NCBI RefSeq assembly: GCF_026309355.1
Contig: NZ_JAPJZK010000001.1
Location: forward strand, 248,001 to 312,000
DNA length: 64,000 bases
Source of the DNA: Spartinivicinus marinus
GTDB taxonomy: Bacteria; Pseudomonadota; Gammaproteobacteria; Pseudomonadales; Zooshikellaceae
Direction: 5' to 3'
Part shown: positions 4,701-11,723 of the stretch, in pieces
Layout of the letters: every line of letters starts with the position of its first letter
How positions within the stretch are numbered: the stretch's first letter is position 1
Notes under the pieces: model-generated
Told to the model about the DNA's origin: nothing
Seen by the model: the letters and a program-made list of their open reading frames with translations, nothing else
Databases searched by the model: none
Made by a program: the position numbers and the translations under genes

Positions 4701-5747
4701 CTAAACAATTTCATCCAACATATGGCCTAACTTTCTTGCTTTAATATTCAAGTAATTATTATTGTAAGGATTACGTCCTTCTCTTAATGGCACTCTTTCC
4801 ACGACATTAATGCCCGCTTTGGTCAATGAGTTCACTTTTCGCGGGTTATTCGTCATCAGTTTTACTTCATTAATTCCAAAATAGTGTAAAATCCCCTTAC
4901 AGAAGTCATAACGCCGCATATCAGCTGCAAAGCCAAGTTTTTCGTTAGCTTCTACAGTATCAGCACCTTCATCCTGTAAGTGATAGGCTCTGATTTTATT
5001 TAACAGGCCAATACCTCGCCCTTCTTGTCTCAAATAAAGTAATACGCCGTTACCATGTTCAACAATATTTTTTAATGCTTTATTTAATTGAAAACCACAA
5101 TCACAACGCAAGCTGAATAATGCATCACCAGTTAAACATTCAGAGTGCAAACGAATTAATACCGGTTTTTTCGTATCAATTTCACCATAACTTAACGCGA
5201 CATGCTCCTTACCGGTTTTCTTTTCCACAAAGCCATGCATGGTAAAAGTGCCCATATCCATCGGTAATTGAGCCGACTCTACATAACGAACCAGTTGATG
5301 CGGGTGCTGCCCTGCCAGCTCTTCACGTACTAGCATTAACAACTCACCTAATCGGTTAAGTCCACTGCCATCACCACCATCCCCCCAATAACTGTCTTTA
5401 AAAGAATGCTCGGCAAGTATGTTATTTCCTGTAGCCACTAACCAATAAGCTAATTGATTGTGTTGTGAAAACTTACAACGTAGCGCCCTCAACATCACAT
5501 TGTCTTTAATTTGTTCCCAATCACTACGTACCTGACGGTCATACTCTCGACTTAACTGAAAGGCTTCTGTTGGTGTTGCTGCATGATAAATTTGAGAGGT
5601 AATATCCCTGGCCATAAACTTGCTGGCTTGATAAAAGTGTTCACTGGTATGCCACTCTACTCCATCGACAATAATAGGGTATTCAGCAAAATTAGATAAA
5701 AAACCATACGACTGATCAGGTTCGTAAAAACGAATCACATTATTCAT
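4701..5747 (-). CDS. ribA: NADAR (RibX/YbiA-type N-glycosidase) fused to GTP cyclohydrolase II
   Basis: This two-domain protein is 348 residues from the ATG at 5747. Residues 1-145 form a NADAR/COG3236 domain, with [24 protein letters not shown] and [17 protein letters not shown]; such domains cleave the N-glycosidic bond of early riboflavin intermediates. Residues about 155-348 form RibA, which opens GTP to the diaminopyrimidine precursor of riboflavin. Its zinc ligands are C204, C215 and C217, and RQEGRGIGL at 240-248 contacts GTP. An upstream in-frame ATG at 5765 exists, but GGGAG lies 8 nt before 5747, which I prefer. A COG3236-RibA fusion is known from Vibrio. No other rib gene is nearby. 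I infer that intermediates are cleaved next to their site of synthesis. Confidence 0.93.
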
Positions 5748-6132
5748 TTCTCTACTCCCTGCCAAACTTACTGGCTAATTTATTTATAAAAACTTTGATT
5801 CAATTTATCCAACAAACTGCAAAGGGTTGGCCAGTAGTAGCAAGCAAATAAATTAATAAAGGAATGAGAACATTAAATGACAGCCAAATGATTAAATATT
5901 TACATCATCATTCATCTATCAAATAAAATATTTTCTTATAAATCAATATACTACCAAACAGTCAAAATATAGCCTAACGCTAAGACGAAAAACTAACCAT
6001 CATATTAAGTTAATTTTAGGCATTACTTATCTATGGTTTTTTATAGGAGATTACTCGGCAGTCAGCATGAATTGTATGAAATCTTAACAGCAAAATATGC
6101 TTATACACCCAATACAAAGGATATATCAGAGT
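5748..6132. other. AT-rich gap with one copy of a short intergenic motif
   Basis: No coding frame is convincing in this 385-bp stretch. At 6102-6125 it holds TATACACCCAATACAAAGG followed by ATATA. This is a member of a quasi-palindromic TATA...CCAATACGAAGG...TATA family found at several places in the window. Otherwise I see nothing. Confidence 0.4.
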
Positions 6133-6618
6133 CTAATGCACCGACTGTATATAATTAGTCGTTTGACTCATTAAAGACAAATACGTCAAACCCTGGTGGG
6201 GTAAGTAGTAAAATATAGGTCGAGCTCTATTTTGCTCTGTCACTAGCATCACGGGTTTATTCAATTGTCGTCCTAGGGTAGTCATTACCCTAAATACAAC
6301 TTTTGCATTTACCTCACAATCTATTTGTGATGAGCTAAATAGCAGTTTTAATATTGCCTTACATTTCAAAATACCAAAAAGCTGGATTTTTCCTAAATCT
6401 ATCGCTAACAGGCTATCATCTCCTAGCAATTGAGTTAACTCATCAATAGTATTAGGCTGTATTACGGGCTTTCCTTTTTTGAATAAATGGAGTTTTGCCT
6501 TGGTCAAACTAAAAAACTCAATAATTTTTAGCCAATCTTGTAACGTCAAATTATTAATACAAATCATCATTAATTGATTACAATGATTAAATTCCTGTCG
6601 ATACTCTGCCCACTGCAT
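6133..6618 (-). CDS. Orphan protein of unknown function
   Basis: The product has 161 residues and I do not recognise it. It has no signal peptide and no clear membrane helix. It mixes aliphatic strands with polar helices (LTLQDWLKIIEFFSLTKAKL near residues 24-43) and two or three cysteines without a metal motif, so it is probably a small soluble alpha/beta protein. The start is supported by GAGGG about 7 nt upstream of the ATG. It stands alone on the minus strand, 385 bp from ribA and divergent from the cysM operon. The moderate AT richness and lack of a recognisable family suggest a lineage-specific gene. It could belong to a degenerate regulator family, but there is no direct evidence for that. 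Confidence 0.6.
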   Translation of the reverse strand: MQWAEYRQEFNHCNQLMMICINNLTLQDWLKIIEFFSLTKAKLHLFKKGKPVIQPNTIDELTQLLGDDSLLAIDLGKIQLFGILKCKAILKLLFSSSQIDCEVNAKVVFRVMTTLGRQLNKPVMLVTEQNRARPIFYYLPHQGLTYLSLMSQTTNYIQSVH

Positions 6619-6796: not shown

Positions 6797-6834
6797 TTTA
6801 TATACTCTTCACGATTTTATATACTTTTCACGAT
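6797..6834 (+). repeat. 19-bp tandem repeat, two copies, upstream of cysM
   Basis: TTTATATACTCTTCACGAT is followed directly by TTTATATACTTTTCACGAT, with one mismatch. It lies about 85 bp before cysM and overlaps the region where its promoter is expected. Its role is unknown. Confidence 0.6.
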
Positions 6835-6917: not shown

Positions 6918-7808
6918 ATGGAGTTGCTCGACTTAGTAGGCAATACCCCACTAATCAACTTAAGCTACTTTAGCCCTGATAAAAAAAATATTTTTCTTTA
7001 TGCCAAAGCAGAGTGGGTCAATCCAGGTGGCTCTCTTAAAGATCGGCCAGTTAAATCCATGTTGCTTCATGCCTTGAACAGCGGTCAGCTTCCAGAAAAC
7101 AGAGTAATACTGGATTCCAGTAGTGGCAATGCAGGCATTTCTTATGCCATGTTGGGCCGAGCAATTAACCGCCATGTTTGCATTGTTATTCCAGGCAATG
7201 CCAGTGAAGAACGCAAGAGCCGTCTTAAAGCTCATGGTGCCGAATTAATCGAAACGGATCCCTTGGAAGGATATGACAAAGCACTTCATCATGTCAGATC
7301 CGTTTATCAAGAATCACCCGATCAGTTTTTTTTCTGTAATCAATATGCCAACCCTTACAATGTTGAAGCCCATTATCAAGGCACCGGTTGTGAAATTATT
7401 AATCAAGTCAAACACCCGATCACCCACTTTATTGGTGGTGTAGGTACCGGGGGCTCACTGACGGGCATTGGATGCCGTTTAAAAGAAGTCTATCCAACTA
7501 TAAAAATCTGCGCTGTACTGCCAGAGCGATGGCCAGGAATAGAAGGATTAAAACCTTTAGGAGAGCTAGCCGATATTGTTCCCGATATTTTTCAGCAACA
7601 TTTAGTCGATGAGTGGGTACCCATCAGGGCTGATGAGGCCAAAGAATATTGCTATGCATTGGCTCACCAAGGTTACTTTGTGGGCCAATCCTCCGGTGCC
7701 TACCTTGCAGCCTGCACTAAAATAATGAAGCAGGTATCTGCAGGGGTCTTTGTGACACTCTTGAACGATTTGGGCGAACGCTATTTCAGTGCAGGCCTCT
7801 GGTCATGA
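6918..7808 (+). CDS. cysM: PLP-dependent cysteine synthase, CysM type
   Basis: This enzyme (296 residues) is a fold-type II PLP enzyme that builds cysteine from an activated serine. K41 in NPGGSLKDRPV is the PLP lysine. SSSGNAGIS (67-75) is the substrate and PLP asparagine loop, GVGTGGSLTG (174-183) binds the PLP phosphate, and QSSGA lies at 257-261. The start follows AAGGAAAAACG and is consistent with the family. It overlaps the next gene, a JAMM peptidase, by 4 bp. The third gene is a sulfur-carrier/E1/rhodanese fusion. The same gene set (CysM, Mec+, CysO, MoeZ) makes cysteine from a protein thiocarboxylate in Mycobacterium. I therefore infer that the sulfur donor is the carrier domain rather than free sulfide. 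Aligned by eye, K212 occupies the place of the phosphoserine-selecting arginine of mycobacterial CysM. Confidence 0.9.
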   Translation: MELLDLVGNTPLINLSYFSPDKKNIFLYAKAEWVNPGGSLKDRPVKSMLLHALNSGQLPENRVILDSSSGNAGISYAMLGRAINRHVCIVIPGNASEERKSRLKAHGAELIETDPLEGYDKALHHVRSVYQESPDQFFFCNQYANPYNVEAHYQGTGCEIINQVKHPITHFIGGVGTGGSLTGIGCRLKEVYPTIKICAVLPERWPGIEGLKPLGELADIVPDIFQQHLVDEWVPIRADEAKEYCYALAHQGYFVGQSSGAYLAACTKIMKQVSAGVFVTLLNDLGERYFSAGLWS

Positions 7809-8251
7809 CTATTTATATTACAACGGAAATAAACCACGCTATGTTGAACCACGCCCAGCAACGTTATCCAAGTGAAAGTTGTGGCTTGATTATTGGCCAT
7901 TGGCAAGCCAGCTATACGACAAGTTGTTACTATTACCCCTGTAATAATCAAATAACAGCCAATAGTCAACGACGTTTTCTCATCGATCCAGTCGTCTATC
8001 AAGAAGCTGAAGATAATGCTGATCAACAAGGCTTGAGCATTATTAGTATCGTTCACTCGCATCCAGACCACCCTGATGAGCCTTCTGAGTTCGACCGTCA
8101 ACATGCCTGGCCTGGGATTAGCTATATTATTATTTCAGTGGTAAACGGCAAAATAGCCAGCTATCGCTCATGGCAACTCACCAATAACCGCAACCAATTT
8201 CTTCCTGAAACCATTCAAGTGGATGGAAACACTCATGCAAGCAACTATTAA
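7805..8251 (+). CDS. JAMM/MPN+ metallopeptidase (Mec-like)
   Basis: This is a single JAB1/MPN domain of 148 residues. The complete JAMM zinc site is visible: E24 in YPSESCGL, then H84 and H86 in HSHP, S94 and D97 (H-x-H-x7-S-x2-D). The fold begins at once, without a signal peptide, so it is cytoplasmic. In bacteria such enzymes remove residues from the C-terminus of ubiquitin-like sulfur carriers. Mec+ of Mycobacterium releases cysteine from CysO, and QbsD-type enzymes expose the Gly-Gly of a carrier. It overlaps cysM by 4 bp and the downstream fusion gene by 17 bp, so the three are translationally coupled. I infer that it releases cysteine from the carrier, or trims the carrier, or both. Confidence 0.92.
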   Translation: MTIYITTEINHAMLNHAQQRYPSESCGLIIGHWQASYTTSCYYYPCNNQITANSQRRFLIDPVVYQEAEDNADQQGLSIISIVHSHPDHPDEPSEFDRQHAWPGISYIIISVVNGKIASYRSWQLTNNRNQFLPETIQVDGNTHASNY

Positions 8252-9656
8252 AATTCCATCACCTTTACGTCGCTTTACTCAGCAACAAAGCAGCCTCATA
8301 TTAGAGGCAAATACGGTTGAAGAAGCAATACACAGCTTGTGTAGTCAATACCCTGAGCTTAAATTACAGTTATTTGATGAAGCAGGCCAATTACGTAACT
8401 TTGTTAATTTATATCTGAATAAAGTGGATATTAAGCAACAACATGGTATGCAAACACAGTTACCAAAAAACAGCGAATTACGTATAGTCCCTGCAATTGC
8501 TGGTGGTTCAATAGCCGAACAAGCTCTGTCACCTGCCGAGTTAAGCCGTTATAGCCGTCATTTGATGCTGCCAGAAATAGGTGAAGCTGGCCAATTAAAA
8601 TTAAAAGCCGCTCGGGTATTAATTATTGGTGTGGGTGGTTTAGGCTCACCATTGAGCCTTTATTTGGCCGCATCAGGTATTGGCAAACTTGGCATTATTG
8701 ACCATGATGTAGTTGAAGAGTCTAACCTGCAAAGACAAATATTGTTTACCAATAATGATTTGGATGCGGCAAAAGTGTTACAAGCCAAAGCCAAACTGAC
8801 AGCGCTCAACCCATATGTCAATATTAGTACTTATAATGAAGCATTAACGACAGATAACGCGCTGAATATTATTAAAGACTATGATTTGATTATTGATGGT
8901 ACCGACAATTTTCCTACCCGCTACCTGGTTAATGATGCCTGCATTTTATTAAATAAACCCAATATATACGGCAGTATTTTCCGCTTTGAGGGCCAGGCGA
9001 CAGTATTTCATTATCAAGACGGCCCTTGTTATCGCTGTTTATACCCTGAGCCTCCCCCCCCAGGATTGGTCCCTTCCTGTGCAGAAGGTGGTGTATTAGG
9101 GGTACTGCCTGGACTCATTGCTACGATTCAAGCCACAGAAGCCATTAAAATCATTACAGATACCGGCGAAAGCCTCAGCGGCCGTTTGATTCTATATGAT
9201 GCATTAAGTATGCGCTTTGATGAATTGGCAATACAAAAAGACACAAACTGTTGTGTTTGTGGTAATAAGCCTAGCATTACCAAGCTTATTGATTATCAAC
9301 AGTTTTGTGGCATACCTAAGCAACCAGCCCAAAAACAATATCAGGAAATATCCGTCGCACAATTAAAACAACGAATTGATGCAGGGGAAGTATTAACCAT
9401 TTTAGATGTACGAGAACAATACGAAGTCAATATCTGTCGTATCAAAAATAGTGTTCATATTCCCATGGCAGAAGTCGCCAGCCAATTAAATCAATTTGAT
9501 AAAACACAGGAAATCATTGTGCATTGTAAAACCGGTGGCCGTTCAGCTAAAACCTGCGAATTACTGCTTCAGCATGGTTTTAAAAAACTAGTGAATCTGT
9601 CCGGTGGTATAATTGCCTGGGCAAATGAGATTGAACCATCCATGGTGAAGTACTAA
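8235..9656 (+). CDS. Sulfur carrier (MoaD/CysO-like) - MoeB/MoeZ E1 - rhodanese fusion
   Basis: From the ATG at 8235 the protein has 473 residues; an in-frame ATG at 8223 is an alternative. Residues 1-91 are a MoaD/ThiS-type ubiquitin-like domain ending in AIAGG (GG at 90-91). Residues about 95-355 are an adenylyltransferase with GVGGLG (132-137), an R residue in ESNLQRQ, DGTDNF, zinc cysteines at 265/268 and 339/342, and C282 in SCAEGG at the MoeZ/Uba4 thiol position. Residues about 370-470 are a rhodanese with active loop CKTGGRS (C431). The E1 adenylates a carrier C-terminus and the rhodanese supplies sulfur to form a thiocarboxylate. Here the carrier's Gly-Gly is internal, followed by SIAEQ, so proteolysis would be needed before activation. 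It is the last gene of the cysM operon and ends 6 bp from convergent tgpA. Confidence 0.9.
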   Translation: MQATIKIPSPLRRFTQQQSSLILEANTVEEAIHSLCSQYPELKLQLFDEAGQLRNFVNLYLNKVDIKQQHGMQTQLPKNSELRIVPAIAGGSIAEQALSPAELSRYSRHLMLPEIGEAGQLKLKAARVLIIGVGGLGSPLSLYLAASGIGKLGIIDHDVVEESNLQRQILFTNNDLDAAKVLQAKAKLTALNPYVNISTYNEALTTDNALNIIKDYDLIIDGTDNFPTRYLVNDACILLNKPNIYGSIFRFEGQATVFHYQDGPCYRCLYPEPPPPGLVPSCAEGGVLGVLPGLIATIQATEAIKIITDTGESLSGRLILYDALSMRFDELAIQKDTNCCVCGNKPSITKLIDYQQFCGIPKQPAQKQYQEISVAQLKQRIDAGEVLTILDVREQYEVNICRIKNSVHIPMAEVASQLNQFDKTQEIIVHCKTGGRSAKTCELLLQHGFKKLVNLSGGIIAWANEIEPSMVKY

Positions 9657-9662
9657 ATACGA

Positions 9663-11723
9663 CTAACGCAAACTCTTCACTGCACTTTTCATTTGCACTA
9701 ATTGCTCCTTGTGCTCTTGTGGTGTTAGCGCCGCAGGCTGGTACATTAGTTTGACATAAAGCTCTGTGACTACTGTTGCTTTAGCTGATAGCTTTGGCTG
9801 TCGCTGTTTTATTCGCGCTAAAAATGTATGGGGTGGTTCATCAATATTTCGTATCAGCCCATGTTTTTCCATACGCTTGCAAAAAGCCAAATAGCACTGA
9901 CTTGCCGGGTCTTTGGCTTGTGGCCGTTGACGCCAGATAATCCATAATGCCAGTAAGCCAATGAGGGCAAACATACTGCCTGCAATAGTAAACACAATGA
10001 CATACCAGTTTTTGCCACCAAACCAGCGCTCAAATAACTCCAGCTGAGCAGCTTGATCATAATTAAGCACCCAGCGTTGCCACTGATATTCCAGTAGTTC
10101 CCATTGCATCCTTACATTATTTAAGAAAGGTACATTACGAAACCGCAAGGGAGATAATGGGCTCTCCGCTAAAAAACTACCCTCTTCTGCCACAGCAGCT
10201 TCCAAGCCTTCTTCTACTCGTTCTGGCGCTACTGCTGCCGTTGGGTCTACTCGCACCCAGCCTCGATTCGGCACCCATACTTCCGCCCAGGCATGGGCAT
10301 CAAAATGCCTGACTTGCACATAATTACCGGCTTTATTAATTTCTCCTCCTTGATAGCCAGCCACCATACGTGCTGGTATTCCAGCTGTACGCATTAGGAA
10401 TACAAATGCACTGGCATAATGAGCACAAAAGCCTCTTTTACTATTTATTAAAAACTCATCAACACTATCACGTCCTAGCAAAGGCGGTTTCAATGTATAA
10501 AAATAAGGCTCCTGACGGAAATGGACTAATATTTTTTCAATATAGTTTTCAACGGATTTACCACTGCTCACCCAAAACTGTTGAGCCATTACTCTAGCTC
10601 TTGGGTTACCAAAGGGAGGTAACTGTAAATTCAATCGTTTTAACCACACAGGTAAATCTTTATCTTGATGACTATCCAGATATGACTTAACACTATACTG
10701 CGTTCGTTGGGTAATAGGCTGGGCAGCTACTAAGCGAAAATCCCTAACTAAGGCTATATTGTTATCATTGTTTTCAGGGTTGGCTAAGCTAAATAACCAA
10801 TGCTGTTGAGTAGGTTCAATTATCACATCATACTCATAAACTTTCCCTATTTTTTCCATGCGCCTTTCCCATCGGGCAGGCAGGTTAGGCCAGCTCAGTA
10901 ACGGTGACTTTAATTGGGCAAGATTAGTTGATAATTTACTGGCCTGTCCTAATTCACGACTCCCTTGGGTCCAGCGGCGACCATCAAAATGGCTCATAAC
11001 TAACCCACGCCAGTAAAGTAAGTCCCTAGGGGGAATATCACCTTTAAAGGTTGCGCGAAATGCCAGCCCATCAGACTTACTTAAATTGGCAATATCACCA
11101 GGGCTAATGGTTTCGCTAACGCCACTTTTAGCATTGGTTTGTGGAAATTCCACCCGCCACAATGGGCTGATTCGTGGTACGAACAAAAATAATAAAATCA
11201 TTAATGGAATTGACTGAACAACTAATACCGCACCTTTTCTGAAAGTGCGCCATGGCTGAAAACCCAAGTGGGGAGTATGCAACCCTACTAGCGCAGAGGT
11301 AATAACCAGTAAGGTAAACAGCATATAGCTGGATACCAAAATACTCTGTGAGTATAAAAACTCGGTGACCACCACAAAATAACTTAGAAAAATCACCAGG
11401 TAAGCATCCCGTAGATTTTTCATTTCCAATAACTTTAATAAAAAGGTGGTTACTAATAAGGCAACACCTGCCTCCAAACCAACAATAGTGCCATAATGAA
11501 ATAAGGTGCCAATAACAGCCGCCCCAACCACCAGGACTTTTATCCATAATTTAGGGTATGACCAGCGACTGCGAAAAATCATTATCCGCCACAATGCACA
11601 GATAATGGCAACCACCACAACCCAAATAGGCAATCGAGACAGCTGCGGTAAAATAACCAATGCCTGAGTGAGTAATAGCCAAATAAGACCTGAGCGGGGT
11701 ATTTGTTGATGGCCAATTTTCAT
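9663..11723 (-). CDS. tgpA: TgpA-type membrane transglutaminase-like protein
   Basis: The protein has 686 residues. Five or six hydrophobic segments fill residues 10-185. A periplasmic region carries a transglutaminase-like core with C433 (GFCAHYASAF), H477 (DAHAW) and D493 (RVDPTAA), so the triad is intact. A further membrane helix lies near 575-598 and a cytoplasmic DUF4129-like tail follows. This matches TgpA of Pseudomonas aeruginosa, an inner-membrane protein with periplasmic transglutaminase activity reported to be essential there. It follows a DUF58 gene by 6 bp and a moxR gene further upstream, the standard moxR-DUF58-tgpA operon. Its substrate is not known. Confidence 0.93.
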   Translation of the reverse strand: MKIGHQQIPRSGLIWLLLTQALVILPQLSRLPIWVVVVAIICALWRIMIFRSRWSYPKLWIKVLVVGAAVIGTLFHYGTIVGLEAGVALLVTTFLLKLLEMKNLRDAYLVIFLSYFVVVTEFLYSQSILVSSYMLFTLLVITSALVGLHTPHLGFQPWRTFRKGAVLVVQSIPLMILLFLFVPRISPLWRVEFPQTNAKSGVSETISPGDIANLSKSDGLAFRATFKGDIPPRDLLYWRGLVMSHFDGRRWTQGSRELGQASKLSTNLAQLKSPLLSWPNLPARWERRMEKIGKVYEYDVIIEPTQQHWLFSLANPENNDNNIALVRDFRLVAAQPITQRTQYSVKSYLDSHQDKDLPVWLKRLNLQLPPFGNPRARVMAQQFWVSSGKSVENYIEKILVHFRQEPYFYTLKPPLLGRDSVDEFLINSKRGFCAHYASAFVFLMRTAGIPARMVAGYQGGEINKAGNYVQVRHFDAHAWAEVWVPNRGWVRVDPTAAVAPERVEEGLEAAVAEEGSFLAESPLSPLRFRNVPFLNNVRMQWELLEYQWQRWVLNYDQAAQLELFERWFGGKNWYVIVFTIAGSMFALIGLLALWIIWRQRPQAKDPASQCYLAFCKRMEKHGLIRNIDEPPHTFLARIKQRQPKLSAKATVVTELYVKLMYQPAALTPQEHKEQLVQMKSAVKSLR

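Follow-up and report, generated by a model that had tools for sequence, protein, structure and literature searches.

The window, a 64,000-nucleotide stretch of the 6.9 Mb genome of Spartinivicinus marinus (G000:C1:248001-312000), carries on its plus strand a compact operon of three overlapping open reading frames (ORFs). The first (6918..7808, 296 residues) encodes a CysM-like, pyridoxal phosphate (PLP)-dependent cysteine synthase of the operon type (PALP, 194 bits) and the second (7805..8251, 148 residues) a JAMM/JAB metallopeptidase (Prok-JAB, 83 bits), whereas the third, ending at 9656, encodes a sulfur carrier, an E1-like activating enzyme and a rhodanese on a single chain, with ThiS, ThiF and Rhodanese domains. 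All of these Pfam matches lie above the gathering scores. The third frame is open from an ATG at 8223 (8223-9656, 477 residues); its start is most likely the ATG at 8235, 12 bases downstream, which gives 473 residues and matches the start of the copy in another genome of the same genus (G001). The original prediction of a cysM gene, a complete JAMM gene and a carrier-E1-rhodanese fusion in one operon is borne out by the ORFs, the Pfam domains and the conserved catalytic residues, as are the predicted overlaps of 4 bp between cysM and JAMM (7805-7808) and 17 bp between JAMM and fusion (8235-8251), the latter holding for the ATG 8235 start. A TgpA gene on the minus strand converges on the operon at 9663, which suggests a unit of three genes.

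Within the fusion (8235..9656, plus strand), the N-terminal CysO-like carrier domain (8235..8507; ThiS, 37 bits) ends in PAIAGG, the pair Gly90-Gly91 being encoded at 8502..8507. A 13-residue linker without an in-frame ATG, GTG or TTG (8508..8546) joins it to a MoeZ/MoeB-type E1 adenylation domain (8550..9251; ThiF, 283 bits), which is followed by a rhodanese domain (9354..9626; Rhodanese, 71 bits) whose active-site cysteine, in the motif HCKTGGRS, is encoded at 9525-9527. Residues 5-95 of the 477-residue form match residues 1-93 of the Mycobacterium tuberculosis CysO chain 3dwg_C (E = 5e-9) up to the same Gly-Gly; among the best 60 of 95 matched PDB chains, this was the only one with its best stretch in the carrier, and it is matched over its full length. 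The E1-rhodanese part resembles MoeB and MoeZ models with scores under their cut-offs (best NCBIfam match of the E1, PRK07411 (MoeB), 500 bits against a cut-off of 633). The likeness to the mycobacterial CysO/MoeZ/Mec+/CysM system that had been proposed is thus upheld by the carrier, which matches CysO to the same Gly-Gly, and by the cysteine synthase in the operon. The peptidase has an intact E/HxH/D set: E24, H84-S-H86, S94 and D97 do not vary in any of the 9 relatives aligned with it. Its best match among solved structures is 2kcq, a Mov34/MPN/PAD-1 family protein.

The Gly-Gly of the carrier is not encoded as a free C-terminus, as the frame runs 382 codons beyond it and the first in-frame start codons past it are codons 110-111 of the 473-residue form, inside the E1 domain. 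Of three ThiS-family matches in the genome, the two outside the fusion belong to standalone carriers that end in GG and have a MoaD/ThiS-like tail, so no separate CysO is seen there. Because the C-terminal glycine of the carrier is peptide-bonded to E1, it lacks the free C-terminus that thiocarboxylation needs, and the fusion should therefore be a precursor. The earlier idea that carrier, activator and sulfurtransferase act as one working chain is for this reason unlikely; the chain is most likely a precursor. We propose, with a probability of about 0.68, that the operon is a protein-thiocarboxylate cysteine cassette in which the carrier is made in blocked form and matured by the JAMM peptidase of the same operon, which would also close the cycle. 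The JAMM would first cut the fusion after Gly91 (PAIAGG/S, after position 8507), releasing a free CysO-like carrier ending in Gly-Gly and a MoeZ-like E1-rhodanese. By homology to MoeZ, the E1 would then adenylate the carrier C-terminus and the rhodanese persulfide convert it to a thiocarboxylate; by homology to CysM, the PLP enzyme would join the carrier sulfur to an activated serine to give a carrier-cysteine adduct; and by homology to Mec+, the same JAMM would cut again after Gly-Gly, yielding cysteine and carrier. One cut by the peptidase would thus be needed for every carrier and another for every cysteine produced. The maturation step is proposed from comparative evidence together with biochemical precedent in other systems, and cysteine is proposed as the product from homology and the presence of CysM at 39 of the 46 fused loci described below.

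A scan of the genome collection with a JAMM alignment gave 152 stretches and 110 relatives, of which the best 80 of 110 were kept as loci. The carrier was fused in 46 of these 80 (25 to E1, 21 to rhodanese), unfused in 29 and not seen in 5. The order carrier-E1-rhodanese was found in records of Moritella, Photobacterium, Shewanella, Hahella, Marinimicrobia and Anaerolineae (Chloroflexi), and the order carrier-rhodanese-E1 in Aromatoleum, Dechloromonas, Ectothiorhodospiraceae, a Nitrospira metagenome-assembled genome (MAG) and others. The gene set is not exceptional for proteobacteria: in the accessible text of Iyer, Burroughs and Aravind 2006 (PMC1779556), row 4c lists alpha- and gammaproteobacteria, and the fused form itself occurs in the first four genera named above as well as in Marinimicrobia and Chloroflexi. 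Pooling of all loci gave 59 fused records, 57 of them distinct (34 carrier-E1 and 23 carrier-rhodanese). Gly-Gly stands at the junction in all 57, in both domain orders, and three carrier columns are invariant among them, two being the junction glycines. In the 25 aligned fusions of the window's order, Gly90, Gly91 and the rhodanese loop cysteine of HCKTGGRS are likewise invariant (25/25). This conservation bears on the possibility that the fused carrier stays uncut, with MoaD or ThiS serving the E1-rhodanese as a separate carrier and the JAMM confined to trimming cysteine adducts. Mycobacterial MoeZR is described as serving MoaD too (PMC3227635), and Iyer et al. supposed that the ubiquitin-like (Ub-like) domain fused to some ThiF proteins has a role unlike that of standalone ThiS (PMC1779556), but the invariant Gly-Gly, together with a ratio of nonsynonymous to synonymous substitution rates (dN/dS) of 0.037 for the carrier part between the window and G001, indicates that the fused carrier is under strong constraint. 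The genome also has four other ThiF-family genes, two with MoeB/ThiF-sized frames (257 and 275 residues), and an uncut carrier is considered unlikely.

The sequence beyond the glycines is less uniform. Among the 57 fusions, the residue after Gly-Gly is Ala in 23, Ser in 16, Ile in 6, Val in 3, Met in 3, Thr in 2 and Glu, Gly, Leu or Asn in 1 each, and the carrier-E1 linker of the 34 fusions of the window's order is 10 to 26 residues long. An in-frame ATG, GTG or TTG is present in the linker of 23 of the 57 (17/34 carrier-E1, 6/23 carrier-rhodanese), with a Shine-Dalgarno-like stretch in six, which would allow carrier and E1 also to be made separately by internal initiation, no protease being needed. 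This explanation is highly improbable, as the linker has no such start in the remaining 34 fusions, the window's among them, and initiation there would free the E1 but never the C-terminus of the carrier.

An E1-based search of the class covered 369 genomes and fetched 30 loci, with flanks of ~1.5 kb, one of which was the window's own. Among the 29 others, a JAMM adjoins all 5 fused loci compared with 3 of the 24 unfused ones. A search of the phylum (398 genomes) added five more genomes with the fusion, the JAMM lying in the same frame in four and beside it in one, and the other 26 loci fetched in that search had neither JAMM nor carrier nearby. With two genomes of the window's own genus (G001 and G002) included, the JAMM was therefore beside the fusion or in frame with it in 12 of the 12 other fused loci found without a JAMM query (5 class, 5 phylum, G001 and G002). 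This association argues against cleavage after Gly-Gly by a different protease, a reading prompted by M. tuberculosis MoaX, which is cut between Gly82 and Ser83 by a protease given as unidentified in the accessible text (PMC4326299). Cleavage by the fusion itself, through a general acyl shift, is in turn spoken against by the presence of Ser, Thr or Cys after Gly-Gly in only 18 of the 57 fusions, and either form of JAMM-independent cleavage is judged quite unlikely.

Unfused carriers point the same way as the fusions. Of 35 distinct sequences, two were set aside, one in which the contig end cuts the carrier (L146) and one in which an ORF holding JAMM and carrier lacks Gly-Gly (L106). In JAMM loci, 26 of 29 unfused carriers continue for 1-28 residues after Gly-Gly, and four retrieved by way of their E1, none with a JAMM detected nearby, stop right at Gly-Gly. 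The controls were 31 standalone ThiS-family carriers with no JAMM detected in a flank of ~1.5 kb, two from the window's own genome and 29 from the best-scoring places in other genomes of the class, GGG ends being counted as GG ends. Residues after Gly-Gly are thus present in 26/29 carriers of JAMM loci compared with 3/31 controls (Fisher p = 3e-10, relatedness not corrected).

In G001 the operon is identical in kind and flanked by the same neighbours, and dN/dS between the two copies is 0.05 for cysM, 0.14 for the JAMM gene and 0.07 for the fusion, values that show purifying selection; a chance assembly of neighbouring genes is thereby ruled out. In G002 the operon is gone from that place, conserved neighbours remaining on both sides, and a remnant of the rhodanese C-terminus can be seen where it would lie (L071:6961-7200). 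A search for relatives in 55 other genomes gave, among the matches listed, a match to the whole fusion only in G001 and G002. A tree built from 81 E1 domains requires no fewer than 11 switches between the fused and unfused states and 2 of domain order, one of the latter resting on a row without assignable order; branch support is from the Shimodaira-Hasegawa-like approximate likelihood ratio test (SH-aLRT) only, and long branches were flagged. As the carrier is joined to E1 in one order and to rhodanese in the other, at least two origins of fusion are implied.

Several observations weigh against JAMM-dependent maturation in a cysteine cassette. A tail is absent in 3 of the 29 unfused carriers of JAMM loci (L062, L066, L151), and the three tailed controls carry residues after Gly-Gly with no JAMM detected nearby. 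On one thin MAG contig, an open frame (L106:1200-2534) encodes a JAMM and, after it, a carrier lacking a terminal Gly-Gly. Most fused loci stem from the JAMM query, which supplied L083-L162, and adjacency to a JAMM is there by construction in these; one of the five fused loci fetched by the E1 query (L063) has broken frames. The E1 tree is a quick one. Loss of the operon in G002 implies that it is dispensable there, and elsewhere in the window's genome lie a cysE (over cut-off), a sulfite-reductase-like gene and a canonical cysM, which make the operon look like a supplementary route to cysteine and rule it out as the organism's only one. Lastly, no CysM was found in the stretch examined at 7 of the 46 fused loci, which suggests that the carrier module may also feed other products.

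The operon CysM is not the canonical one, as judged from its sequence: it scores 261 bits against TIGR01138 (cysM; cut-off 394), compared with 490 bits for the canonical CysM of the genome, and falls below the NCBIfam cut-offs for both CysM and CysK. It was aligned with one CysM from each of 63 loci of the JAMM-based scan, giving 64 type-1 operon CysMs, in all of which the PLP lysine K41 is present. Seven residues, including Y76, Y143, K212 and W295, are invariant in the 64 and differ from the canonical copy, where K212 and W295 are Arg and Phe. K212 aligns with an Asp of the type-2 enzyme described below, and Escherichia coli CysM chains, aligned to a Rubrobacter operon CysM, also have Arg at this position, which may correspond to the O-phosphoserine site of M. 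tuberculosis CysM, Arg220.

The scores below the CysM and CysK cut-offs, together with the loci that lack CysM, would also suit an alternative in which maturation of the fusion proceeds as above while the sulfur ends up in a product other than cysteine, the CysM-like enzyme making another β-substituted alanine. Further encouragement for it comes from a second kind of cluster (type 2). Its additional genes encode EamA, AlaX and a serine-acetyltransferase-like protein, a set that would suit an amino acid that is exported or mischarged. Against this, CysM is present at 39/46 fused and 24/29 unfused loci, the immediate neighbours tested include no other recognisable biosynthetic gene, and carrier, E1-rhodanese, JAMM and CysM are together the mycobacterial cysteine set as given in the accessible text of PMC3227635; the alternative is held to be unlikely.

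In four genomes with the type-2 cluster (G706, G683, G635 and G740), JAMM, carrier, E1 and rhodanese lie in one frame of 629-630 codons (L199:5000-6889, L200:5008-6897, L201:5658-7550 and L202:2589-4478). EamA precedes this chain, and a CysK-like enzyme, the serine-acetyltransferase-like protein (TIGR01172, 149 bits; cut-off 211) and AlaX follow it, AlaX being a hint that the product may be a toxic or mischarged amino acid. The two one-frame chains scanned with Pfam gave JAB, ThiF and rhodanese domains and no ThiS, the carrier being seen only by phmmer with relatives. In L199 an internal ATG stands behind a GGAG stretch ahead of the carrier, so that the frame may yield either a single chain or two products. 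In G463 and G002 the cluster recurs with the JAMM in a frame of its own (L070:7764-13495 in G002; type-2 clusters also in L199-L203).

The three neighbours of the window operon that were tested are a NADAR-RibA fusion, a 161-residue protein without a family and TgpA. The first (4701-5765, minus strand) joins NADAR and GTP cyclohydrolase II (RibA) on one chain, and frames of equal length occupy the corresponding position in G001 and G002; the second (6133-6618, minus strand) has no Pfam or NCBIfam match and corresponds to 163-residue frames at the same place in both genomes. A CaiB-like CoA transferase or AMP ligase, the siderophore marker of row 4a of Iyer et al., is not among these three, genes farther away not having been scanned, and no theme was shared by nine flanking genes tested in five other operons. 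Upstream of cysM, a 19-bp tandem repeat (6797-6834) was considered as a conserved operator and ruled out, its tandem form being absent from G001, where the unit is present in single copy. Promoter-like sites numbered 12 (shuffled sequence: mean 7.8, sd 2.8) and terminator-like sites 4 (mean 2.7, sd 1.5), counts that give no support for either kind of signal. A second JAMM-family match lies elsewhere in the genome (G000:C1:2728429-2731045; L002, L037), ~2 kb or less from a 263-residue E1-like frame.

Taken more broadly, it seems rather probable that bacteria make this sulfur relay as a polyprotein, with carrier, E1 and rhodanese (and, in the four genomes above, the JAMM too) translated together into a single inactive chain, which is then cleaved at Gly-Gly. 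If so, carrier and activator would be made one to one and nothing would work until the JAMM is present, so that the JAMM gene of such operons would have an essential early role, the supply of usable carrier, besides adduct cleavage. One peptidase would then start and close the cycle, in a metabolic counterpart of ubiquitin precursor processing, and processing of ubiquitin-like precursors would also serve a basic metabolic route in bacteria. For annotators, such chains should be read as probable precursors and not as working enzymes.

The closest functional parallel is the CysO-CysM-Mec+/MoeZ(R) system of Mycobacterium, in which, according to the accessible text of PMC3227635, the carrier holds the sulfur at its last glycine, in thiocarboxylate form. 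The two share a CysO-like carrier, an E1-rhodanese, a JAMM and a PLP cysteine synthase; unlike the mycobacterial proteins, carrier and E1-rhodanese form one chain here, the CysO chain in PDB ending at Gly-Gly. Operons of carrier, JAB, E1-rhodanese and cysteine synthase, gammaproteobacteria included, were described by Iyer, Burroughs and Aravind in 2006 (PMC1779556), and the window operon has the gene set of their types 4b and 4c, the latter adding the cysteine synthase. In section 12 and rows 4a-4e of the accessible text, however, ThiS/MoaD and E1 plus rhodanese are separate proteins. The same authors described Ub-like-ThiF fusions, in Campylobacter jejuni and, beside a cysteine synthase, in Pelobacter propionicus, in which the Ub-like domain is likewise N-terminal to E1, so the joining of a carrier to E1 is not in itself new. 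That Ub-like family is distinct from ThiS, lies mostly beside a standalone ThiS and was supposed to have another role; its accessible description does not mention rhodanese or JAB. Iyer et al. also raised the possibility that a ThiS/MoaD joined to another protein is severed from it by JAB, which would expose the carboxyl terminus of the carrier; the reading proposed here would make this directly testable with three genes.

Precedents for the maturation step come from carriers with blocked ends, again as given in the accessible texts. Sulfur carriers capped by residues beyond Gly-Gly are described as typically requiring a protease, QbsD for example, before sulfur transfer, and deletion of the JAMM gene ptmS1 abolished thiocarboxylate products (PMC6006322). 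In the QbsD (thioquinolobactin) and PtmS2/PtmS1 systems, as in the window, residues follow Gly-Gly and a JAMM gene adjoins, but the caps there are one or two residues long, whereas here the cap is a 382-residue enzyme of the same pathway. MoaX, a MoaD-MoaE chain, also has its carrier fused through Gly-Gly and is cut at Gly-Ser, cleavage being needed for function, although its partner is MoaE and its protease was left unnamed (PMC4326299). For Ubl-MoaE fusions it was argued that the blocked glycine cannot be thiocarboxylated, and in the case of SAMP1-MoaE, HvJAMM1 cuts the linear carrier fusion precisely after the last glycine, restoring function (PMC4443979); unlike the window's chain, that fusion was expressed experimentally in an archaeon with separate genes of its own. 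In the literature searched, chiefly non-subscription text without figures or supplements, neither a carrier-E1-rhodanese nor a JAMM-carrier-E1-rhodanese chain was found described. The kind of operon is thus already known, and it is the JAMM-dependent maturation of a whole carrier-E1-rhodanese relay that would be new.

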